In this document: positions 34,948-39,112 of the stretch, one piece after another | Layout: the number at the start of each line of letters is the position of its first letter | How positions within the stretch are numbered: position 1 is the stretch's first letter | NCBI RefSeq assembly: GCF_014695385.1 | Contig: NZ_JACJOD010000013.1 | Location: 62,001 to 126,000 of the forward strand | Length of the DNA stretch: 64,000 nt | Direction of reading: 5' to 3' | Source: Trichocoleus sp. FACHB-46 | GTDB taxonomy: Bacteria; Cyanobacteriota; Cyanobacteriia; FACHB-46 | Program-made: the position numbers and the translations under genes | The notes under the pieces: model-generated | Seen by the model: only the letters and a program-made list of their open reading frames with translations | The model's database searches: none | Told to the model about the DNA's origin: nothing

Positions 34948-35718
34948 ATGAGTCATAAAGATAATAATGAGCAGAAAAACAAAGCTCATTTAACCCTAGG
35001 GTCTGCTAGTGGGATAGGAGGTGTAGGCATACTACAAATTCTAAGTCTCTTTCCTCTTACAGCTCCCATAGGAGCCGCTGGTACTGTTATTTTGAGTGCA
35101 TGGCAATCTGAGCAGCAAAAGAAATTTATCAGTGAAGTCGAGCAAAAGATAGAGGCCCTTGAGCAGAAAACCATTAAACAATCTTTGCTAGATTCTGATG
35201 AGTTTAAAGAAATAGTAGCTCGTATTTGGGATAACGCTTTGAAAACAGCTTCAGACTTGAAACGGAAGGCGCTTGCGAGCGTTTTGGTGAATTCTGCTAC
35301 TCAATCCCAAAACAGTCTCGCCGAAAAATCATCTCTTTTGCGAACTCTGCTAGAAATATCAGACAGAGAAATACTTGTCTTTACAGTTATACAAAGTGCT
35401 CTAGAAAAATCTGTTTCTTCTTGCCACGAGAAAGATATAGAACTAGCCTTAAATTTAAGTAGTCAAGAAGTTCATAATACTTGTGAGGATTTAGAGCAGC
35501 TTCGTCTAATAGCCCTTGCTGAACCGAATACCTGGACTATCACTCAACGTGGTTTGAGACTAATCGTGTGGTGGAGTGGGCTAGACAAACAAGAGATCCT
35601 AACAGCAGTTCAAGAGAGGGTTGAATCCGAACTTGGAACTAAACTTCAAGAAGTCAAGCAAGAAACAATGATTGCGATGTATGACACGCTTAGAAAAATG
35701 ATGCATCTCGGCAGGTAA
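34948..35718 (+). CDS. Hypothetical protein with hydrophobic segment, coiled coil and possible winged helix
   Basis: 256 residues. A Gly/Ala/Ile/Leu-rich stretch (about 20-50) could be a membrane segment; residues about 55-80 read as a coiled coil; a helical core follows (A-L-A-S-V-L-V-N-S-A). The C-terminal third (L-S-S-Q-E-V-H-N-T-C-E-D-L-E-Q-L-R-L-I-A, then W-T-I-T-Q-R-G-L-R-L-I) resembles a winged helix that reads a strand after a recognition helix. Lys/Glu/Ser-rich, AT-rich, no HIP1. Probably in one transcript with the 93-residue gene. Layout is like membrane-plus-helical accessory proteins found in defence or stress islands, but I do not recognise a family. Confidence 0.65.
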   Translation: MSHKDNNEQKNKAHLTLGSASGIGGVGILQILSLFPLTAPIGAAGTVILSAWQSEQQKKFISEVEQKIEALEQKTIKQSLLDSDEFKEIVARIWDNALKTASDLKRKALASVLVNSATQSQNSLAEKSSLLRTLLEISDREILVFTVIQSALEKSVSSCHEKDIELALNLSSQEVHNTCEDLEQLRLIALAEPNTWTITQRGLRLIVWWSGLDKQEILTAVQERVESELGTKLQEVKQETMIAMYDTLRKMMHLGR

Positions 35719-35996: not shown

Positions 35997-38291
35997 TTAA
36001 TTCTCTATTGTGGCTTTGATATTAGCTTCTTCGTAATTTATTTGAAATAAGCGATTGCGGCCTTGAGCTTTAGCTCGGTAAAGACCTTGATCCGCGGCTG
36101 CAATTAAAGTTGCAGCAGAAGACTGGCCCTGGGGAATTGTTGTGGCGACACCGAGGCTAAGCGTTACGAATCCAGTAACTTGAGAACTAATGTGCAGCAG
36201 TTGCAAAGTTTTGATCTTGGCCTGGATTTCGGTCGCGACTGCGGCAGCACCCACCGCATCCGTATTCGGTAGGATGATGGCAAATTCTTCACCCCCGTAA
36301 CGAGCCACTAGATCCGCAGGTCGCTTTACAGCTTGGGCGATCGCTTGGGCAACTTGTCTTAAAGCATCATCCCCAGCTAAGTGCCCGTAGGTGTCGTTAT
36401 ACAACTTGAAGCAATCTACATCGCACAGAATCAAAGACAAAGTAGCTTGCTCACGCGCTAATCGCTGCCATTCCTGAGCTAAATACTCATCAAAGCAGCG
36501 ACGATTTGCCACTTGAGTCAAGCCATCTGAGGACGCGAGGCGCTGTAGCTCCTGGTTGGCTTGTTGCAGTTGTTGATAAAGTTCCGACTGCTGAATCGCG
36601 ATCGCGGCTTGACCCGCCAACTGGCTGAATAGATTCATCTCAGAAGCTTTCCAGCTTCTAGGACCGCTACACTGATGGGCGATCATTAGCCCCCACAGCT
36701 TCTCCTGCTGCAAAATTGGCACCACTAAATTAGCCCGAATTTGCAACTGCTGTAGTAGCTCCACATGGCATGGAGTCAGCTCTGCGGCGTGAATATCTTC
36801 AATTGCTTTAGTTCGTCCTTGCTTATATTCACAAGCGTGATTGGATTGGAAGCAAGTATCTATGACATTCAGCCCCAATATAGGTAGCCATCCCTCGGCT
36901 ACAGACTCTACCACCACAACCCCACTCCAGTCGGACGCAAAGCGGTAAAGGACAACCCGATCTACCTGAAACAGCTGTCGAACTTCTGCCGCTGTGGTTT
37001 GCAGAATTTCATTTAAGTCTAGAGATTGCCGAATGCGCTGAGTTACAGCAGCCACAATTCGCTCCGACTCACTTTGCTGGTCAATTTGCGCCTGTAAGTC
37101 GTAGTTTGCTAGCGGTTGGCTGCCTACCTGCTGAGCCTGACTACTTGCGTCCGGCAGGTTGTCACTAAGTTGATTTAAAGTCGGTGGCGCGATCGCAGTT
37201 AAGCAAGGCGTCGTAGCGGCGGGCAAAGCCCCTGGTTTGGCAATCAAGTATCCTTGGGCAAAAGTGGCACCGCGCTGCCGCAGCCAGTCCAGCTCCCCAA
37301 TGCACTCAATGCCTTCAGCCACGGTCTGAATATTTAACTGCTGCGTAATTTCCAAAATCTTTTCTGTGATTAGACCTTTATAGGGGTCTTGATGCACATC
37401 TCGAACCAGGCCCATATCCAATTTGAGGAAGTCTGGACGTAATTGATGCAATAAATTAAGGCTAGAGTAGCCAGAGCCTAAATCATCCAGCGCGATCAGA
37501 AACCCTGCATCTCGGTAGTATTTCAAAATTGATTTGAGATGATCCAAATCCTGAGGGCGATCGGACTCAATTACTTCAAACACCACATGCTCATGGGGAA
37601 TGCCTGCCTCATCAATGGCATCTACGGTACTCCGTAGGCAGGAAACTGGGTCATACAACGCCGTGGGGGAAAAATTGATAAAGATGTGGCTGGAGATTTG
37701 ATGCCGACTGGCAGCAGCGATCGCGCTTAAACGAGCCAGTCGATCCACTTGGGGCAGCAGTCCCGCTTCTGTAGCCAAATCCAAAATGGCACCTGGCATA
37801 ATCAAACGATCCTGCTCGTCAAACCCCCGCAATAGCGCTTCGTGAGCATAAATCCGAGAGGTGTCTGCCATGTGAACAATCGGCTGAAAAAAGCTAGTGA
37901 AGCGTTTAGCCGCCAGCATCTCTACCAGCCAATCAGATTGGGTGAACTTGATGAAGCGTTGCAACGAGGTAATATCGCTAAAGTCATGAATTCGGGGCTG
38001 GATATTACCTCGAACAAACAACACTTGAGTAGATTCCAACTCTCGCGGAGTCAGCAACTCGCCGATATTTTTGGCTAACTCCTGGGTTTGTCCAGGTGCA
38101 CAAGCAATACTCAGGCCATGCCGCTCTGGCATCAGATCGCAGCTGAAGTTTGCTGTCTGCAAGTAAGGCACGATTTTTTTTAGGGTGTGCGGTACAGGCA
38201 GCCACAGAAACAATCTGCCAGCCTCTGCTGCACCACAGGGCGAGAGGTTGTAGCAAGCACAGGATTTCGGACCAGCATTAGCTTGGCTCAC
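35997..38291 (-). CDS. EAL-GAF-GGDEF protein with cyanobacteriochrome-type GAF
   Basis: 764 residues, cytoplasmic. A Cys-containing N-terminal domain (1 to about 115, with C-A-C and C-G-A near the start) precedes an EAL phosphodiesterase domain (about 120-355): E-A-L-L-R-G, I-N-F-S-P, F-E-V-I-E-S, A-L-D-D-L-G-S-G-Y-S-S, L-K-L-D and V-A-E-G-I-E, so catalytic residues look intact. A GAF domain (about 425-575) has D478-T-C480-F and C508-H509, the two cysteines of DXCF cyanobacteriochromes 28 residues apart. The GGDEF domain (about 595-750) carries intact G-G-E-E-F near 665. The protein can thus in principle both make and degrade cyclic di-GMP under light control. Unusual order: most hybrids run GAF-GGDEF-EAL. 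Confidence 0.93.
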   Translation of the reverse strand: MSQANAGPKSCACYNLSPCGAAEAGRLFLWLPVPHTLKKIVPYLQTANFSCDLMPERHGLSIACAPGQTQELAKNIGELLTPRELESTQVLFVRGNIQPRIHDFSDITSLQRFIKFTQSDWLVEMLAAKRFTSFFQPIVHMADTSRIYAHEALLRGFDEQDRLIMPGAILDLATEAGLLPQVDRLARLSAIAAASRHQISSHIFINFSPTALYDPVSCLRSTVDAIDEAGIPHEHVVFEVIESDRPQDLDHLKSILKYYRDAGFLIALDDLGSGYSSLNLLHQLRPDFLKLDMGLVRDVHQDPYKGLITEKILEITQQLNIQTVAEGIECIGELDWLRQRGATFAQGYLIAKPGALPAATTPCLTAIAPPTLNQLSDNLPDASSQAQQVGSQPLANYDLQAQIDQQSESERIVAAVTQRIRQSLDLNEILQTTAAEVRQLFQVDRVVLYRFASDWSGVVVVESVAEGWLPILGLNVIDTCFQSNHACEYKQGRTKAIEDIHAAELTPCHVELLQQLQIRANLVVPILQQEKLWGLMIAHQCSGPRSWKASEMNLFSQLAGQAAIAIQQSELYQQLQQANQELQRLASSDGLTQVANRRCFDEYLAQEWQRLAREQATLSLILCDVDCFKLYNDTYGHLAGDDALRQVAQAIAQAVKRPADLVARYGGEEFAIILPNTDAVGAAAVATEIQAKIKTLQLLHISSQVTGFVTLSLGVATTIPQGQSSAATLIAAADQGLYRAKAQGRNRLFQINYEEANIKATIEN

Positions 38292-38467: not shown

Positions 38468-39112
38468 TTAATCGTTTGGTAGCGGCGGGCGGAAGCAAAG
38501 GTAAGCCAGTGGCCCAAATAGCGGAATTAAAGCCACAGTCCAAAACAAGCCTGGTTCTTTTAAACCTCGACGGGCCATGTCGTCTCCTAGCAAGGTCGGC
38601 CACAACAGACCGAAAAGGCAAAACGCCAAACTCATTAGGTGAATGAAGCGGCTGGTTTGAAACTCCTGCACAAACCCACCCCAATCACCCAATAGAATGC
38701 CATAGGCGATAAAGGCGATCGTGCTTGTGCTGATCAACCAACCAGTGCGGCGTGAATCCCAAAAATTGAGCCAGCCATCTTTAGGCCCCGAAAAATGTTG
38801 GTTCGGCTCTCGTAACGCCAAATAAGGAATTAAACCCAATACTCCGGTGCCCAGAGAACCTAGGACAAACGGCCAAGCAGGAAGCTTTTGCATACGGCCA
38901 TCGGCAAATATGAGGCAGCTATAGATCATCACCCACATGCCAATCAGACTGAACACTGCCACGACCCAAGCGTTCAGATCTGTCCAGTTTCCCGCCAAGA
39001 AGTTTTGTAAGCGGCCTACGTCAGGCTGCCAGGGGGGAGCTAGGAACACAGCATAGGCAATAAAGCCAATCCAGAGCAGCCACAATCCGACTTTTCTGAT
39101 CATTGCTTTCAC
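38468..39112 (-). CDS. Polytopic membrane protein, unknown
   Basis: 214 residues with about six hydrophobic segments. Notable stretches are F-L-A-P-P-W-Q-P, L-G-L-I-P-Y-L-A-L-R-E-P and P-L-F-G-P-L-A-Y-L-C-F-R-P-P near the C-terminus. It looks like a conserved cyanobacterial thylakoid or plasma membrane protein but I cannot name the family. A 29-residue single-helix protein is encoded just upstream on the same strand. Confidence 0.75.
   Translation of the reverse strand: MKAMIRKVGLWLLWIGFIAYAVFLAPPWQPDVGRLQNFLAGNWTDLNAWVVAVFSLIGMWVMIYSCLIFADGRMQKLPAWPFVLGSLGTGVLGLIPYLALREPNQHFSGPKDGWLNFWDSRRTGWLISTSTIAFIAYGILLGDWGGFVQEFQTSRFIHLMSLAFCLFGLLWPTLLGDDMARRGLKEPGLFWTVALIPLFGPLAYLCFRPPLPND

Follow-up and report, generated by a model that had tools for sequence, protein, structure and literature searches.

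The minus-strand gene at positions 38291-35997 of the window, a stretch of 64,000 nucleotides from the cyanobacterium Trichocoleus sp. FACHB-46, encodes a protein in which a DXCF-type cyanobacteriochrome GAF domain lies between an EAL and a GGDEF domain. Taken as a whole, and with the mechanism proposed below included in that judgement, the product is probably a soluble bilin-binding photoreceptor joined to both of the enzymes that make and degrade cyclic di-GMP. Light-controlled bifunctional proteins of cyclic di-GMP metabolism are already known, and this one belongs to that kind as a conserved variant, distinguished by its architecture and ancestry. The reading frame has a GTG start and runs for 764 amino acids free of internal stops; the start is supported by several orthologues whose sequences open at the corresponding position (MSQ/VSQ/VDR). 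The features of the gene are the following:

35997-38291, minus strand: the whole gene, N-terminal domain-EAL-GAF (DXCF cyanobacteriochrome)-GGDEF, 764 residues, from the open reading frame and Pfam, its start backed by orthologue N-termini
38007-38261, minus strand: N-terminal domain, residues 11-95, with C11-A-C13 followed by a predicted ferredoxin-like (beta-alpha-beta-beta-alpha-beta) fold, from conservation and AlphaFold
37233-37931, minus strand: EAL phosphodiesterase domain, residues 121-353 (Pfam 1.6e-54; structural match to 6ij2 with Z 29)
37827-37841, minus strand: EALLR catalytic motif, residues 151-155, with E and R in 24 of the 24 sequences that cover it
37080-37211, minus strand: EAL-GAF linker, residues 361-404, of low confidence and variable length, from pLDDT and orthologue lengths
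36594-37019, minus strand: GAF domain, DXCF-type cyanobacteriochrome, residues 425-566 (Pfam 1.4e-24; alignment to solved structures; tree)
36849-36860, minus strand: DTCF motif with the second cysteine C480 (36852-36854)
36765-36770, minus strand: predicted canonical bilin-binding C508-H509, the histidine kept in 23 orthologue sequences and replaced by Tyr in one
36531-36647, minus strand: continuous signalling helix from GAF to GGDEF, residues 549-587, predicted as a single helix
36051-36533, minus strand: GGDEF diguanylate cyclase domain, residues 587-747 (Pfam 1.3e-51; Z 27.7 to the WspR GGDEF)
36282-36323, minus strand: RPAD I-site (657-660) and GGEEF active site (666-670), from the sequence and the orthologue alignment

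The three Pfam domains bear out the original prediction of an EAL-GAF-GGDEF protein, and the motifs on which it built a two-cysteine cyanobacteriochrome are where it had placed them. Twenty-eight residues separate the cysteines of D478-T-C480-F and C508-H509, and the alignment runs without gaps against the DPCF...CH of TePixJ (PDB 3vv4), a photoreceptor whose output is, however, a chemotaxis-type transducer. Both cysteines are kept in all 24 full-length orthologue sequences, so the pair is not due to chance. The sole diverged homologue, a 558-aa EAL-GAF-GGDEF protein (L051, G241:C347), lacks the two together, each being replaced by His (EQHF and HH). Among 30 other GAF domains sampled from the same genome, 12 carry both cysteines, 16 neither, two the canonical one only and none the second one only (Fisher p = 1e-6). 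The closest solved structures are cyanobacteriochromes or their derivatives (PPHK 6oap at 7e-57, 6bhn, miRFP670nano and TePixJ). In the GAF tree the orthologous domains group together as one clade (100/99), on the side where the bilin-binding GAFs lie; the deep split between the two sides is itself weakly supported. The WXDXXL tryptophan marks the XRG (red/green) type of cyanobacteriochromes (PMC11284453), and a Val stands in its place here. The domain thus combines a canonical cysteine in a CH/CY context, a DXCF second cysteine and no XRG-type tryptophan; alignment, conservation and the joint loss of both cysteines strongly support the two-cysteine DXCF assignment.

The GAF domain therefore very probably senses blue and green light through a bilin pigment, and one bilin reductase (family PF05996) is encoded in the genome. 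C508 would hold phycocyanobilin, or phycoviolobilin derived from it, at C3(1), and C480 would attach reversibly at C10, so that the dark state would absorb blue light and the photoproduct would be green or teal. Isomerization of phycocyanobilin to phycoviolobilin is typical of the DXCF type but not universal, and it is uncertain in this protein because Thr479 replaces the Pro found in the DPCF of TePixJ and Cph2. A GAF domain that holds no bilin and responds to another ligand would have a precedent in a related GAF-GGDEF protein of the same genome that lacks both cysteines; given that the pair is strictly conserved and co-inherited in the query family, and that cyanobacteriochromes are its nearest solved structures, we regard this as very improbable. 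The related protein (L079, G000:C6:785600-788300) is a 676-aa frame that, read by eye, looks like CBS repeats-GAF-GGDEF, an architecture resembling that of SesA, with AAYF and RY at the two cysteine positions. The genome also holds a 210-aa frame (L090, G000:C8:141700-143500) that is almost nothing but a DXCF-type GAF (DDCF...CH) and adjoins a frame resembling the start of an acetyl-CoA synthetase.

Both enzyme domains look intact, as had been proposed. The EAL domain retains E151, N206, E239/E242, D269-D270, K290, E326 and Q346, the full set of residues expected of a phosphodiesterase of this class. The GGDEF domain has its GGEEF signature, the metal and substrate residues and the RxxD site of a cyclase subject to product inhibition. 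Across the orthologues that cover them, the EAL residues and GGEEF hardly vary, and most orthologues also retain the RxxD site. This conservation argues against the reading that only one of the enzymes matters in vivo, with a weak cyclase activity making the protein a net phosphodiesterase, for instance, or with the EAL domain of a cyclase serving mainly to sense cyclic di-GMP. Such cases do exist, since Anabaena CdgSH is a net phosphodiesterase in vitro with both domains intact (PMC8682488) and the other GGDEF domain of Cph2 is degenerate (PMC5812497); for the present protein we hold a single working enzyme to be improbable.

How light would reach the two enzymes is suggested by the segments that connect them to the sensor. 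The distance from the canonical cysteine to the D-x-LT motif of the GGDEF domain is 81 residues in 24 of 24 orthologues and in all five Cph2-like proteins compared, which implies a signalling helix of the same length; in the structural model this helix falls below pLDDT 50 at residues 581-592, and global confidence in the model of the whole protein is low (pTM 0.49). The EAL-GAF linker, on the other hand, has a pLDDT of about 28-34 across residues 371-400, and the distance from FAQGY to ERIV that spans it varies from 36 to 61 residues among orthologues. A helix of fixed length on one side and a disordered, variable linker on the other favour direct light control of the cyclase. The same linker, together with the occurrence of EAL-only relatives, one of them with a remnant of the GAF domain, suggests that the phosphodiesterase may be independent of light.

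In the proposed mechanism, the rigid helix between GAF and GGDEF would carry the photochange to the cyclase. The Cph2 cyanobacteriochrome-GGDEF module is a blue-activated cyclase (PMC5812497), and so is SesA (PMC8846402); by analogy, blue light would most likely raise synthesis here, with the product acting as an inhibitor at the RxxD site. The EAL domain would probably degrade cyclic di-GMP without direct light control, and light would set the cyclic di-GMP balance by tuning synthesis up or down against this degradation.

The original prediction used the same parts differently, as a switch in which one colour turns the GGDEF domain on and the EAL domain off and the other colour does the reverse. 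EAL and GGDEF domains both act as dimers, a property that suits such a switch, as do the two intact active sites. Its model would be SesC (Tlr0911) from Thermosynechococcus, a bifunctional cyclase and phosphodiesterase under a blue/green cyanobacteriochrome, in which blue light raises the cyclase and lowers the phosphodiesterase and green light does the opposite (PMC8846402, PMC5871770). The likeness is one of described function, and the opposite control established for SesC is only a candidate property of the present protein. Here the EAL domain is N-terminal of the sensor and sits behind the disordered linker, and its family includes the EAL-only relatives already mentioned. We consider a two-way switch unlikely on these grounds, but since SesC does drive both activities in opposite directions it remains a serious rival, and an independent EAL domain is just the likelier reading.

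The original prediction also described the EAL-first order as uncommon, which has to be corrected: it characterizes a conserved family, and the C-terminal half of Cph2 from Synechocystis PCC 6803 is likewise ordered EAL-cyanobacteriochrome-GGDEF (PMC5812497). Cph2-like proteins, including the homologue from Synechocystis salina (L059), also share the DXCF and CH motifs (DPCF...CH) in this context and the same distance from cysteine to GGDEF. Between the query and the Cph2-type proteins, the S. salina homologue among them, the GAF domains are about 50-55% identical and the GGDEF domains 55-60%. Cph2 differs in having an N-terminal GAF-GAF(PHY)-GGDEF photosensory half, where the query begins with a CxC domain and an EAL of another family. 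The query EAL is only about 30% identical to that of Cph2 but 59-75% identical to stand-alone EALs bearing a CxC or CxxC N-terminal domain, as in Anabaena sp. 4-3 (L016), which have the first two domains of the query and no GAF-GGDEF. In the EAL tree, the Cph2 EALs form a clade separate from the query-type EALs (100/100), and EAL-only proteins are interspersed among the fused ones. The simplest reading is thus a fusion of a stand-alone EAL phosphodiesterase with a Cph2-like blue/green cyanobacteriochrome-GGDEF module. A firm placement of the GAF beside that of Cph2 was attempted and rejected, the deep forks being unsupported in the GAF and the GAF+GGDEF trees. The arrangement appears also to have been undone in one case: one relative (L052, G256:C51) keeps the EAL and carries, just past its frame, a 21-residue scrap of the GAF with 81% identity, a sign that this relative lost the sensor-cyclase half while its EAL frame remained open.

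The genome has a Cph2-like protein of its own, a 1147-aa frame (L087, G000:C33:7200-11500) that ends just past its cyanobacteriochrome GAF (DCCF...CH). No GGDEF remnant was found downstream of it, whereas its relatives of the same genus (L011, L012) do carry the terminal GGDEF.

The N-terminal domain may constitute a second input of the EAL family. C11, C13 and H35 do not vary across the 20 homologues aligned, the most distant of which are 26-29% identical. AlphaFold places the first 130 residues in a ferredoxin-like fold (mean pLDDT 78.7), Foldseek returned only weak ferredoxin-like matches to the domain (best E 0.02), and Pfam gave no match in the first 130 residues at E values up to 10. The invariant residues make a metal or redox role possible for this uncharacterized family domain. 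An extended proposal would make the protein a two-input controller born of the fusion, in which blue/green light sets synthesis through the cyanobacteriochrome-GGDEF half and the CxC domain sets degradation by the EAL through redox state or a metal; we offer it as a rather doubtful one.

Full-length orthologues, about 64-84% identical to the query, occur in 23 of the 388 cyanobacterial genomes sampled (about 6%). They amount to 24 sequences, two of which (L004 and L015) are identical, and one (L055) was scored as two pieces although it is a single 740-aa frame. The family spans Myxacorys, including M. californica, and several other families. No description of the conserved domain arrangement was found in the literature searched, whose reach into reviews of cyanobacterial cyclic di-GMP was limited, and an earlier mention is possible. 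Knowledge of how light controls cyclic di-GMP in cyanobacteria comes from a small number of well-studied proteins, Cph2 and SesA/B/C, which belong to two unicellular genera. Among these, SesA (Tlr0924) from Thermosynechococcus couples a blue/green cyanobacteriochrome to a GGDEF domain as the query does, but its output is the GGDEF alone. The present family adds a further conserved arrangement, with one sensor between two opposing enzymes, and lends itself to asking directly which enzyme a cyanobacteriochrome controls: the one preceding it, the one following it, or both.

As for the cellular role, it is only the analogy of Cph2 and SesA/B/C that makes an output in motility or aggregation plausible. 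The genome encodes possible cyclic di-GMP targets, with three matches to PilZ and two to MshEN domains. No neighbour of the gene was found to be conserved outside the genus, so it appears to stand alone; none of the neighbours hints at motility or aggregation, and a promoter scan gave nothing above chance. The nearest flanking frames of more than 200 aa (34948-35718 on the plus strand and 38468-39112 on the minus strand of the window) have no Pfam match, and the second looks by sequence like a small membrane protein.
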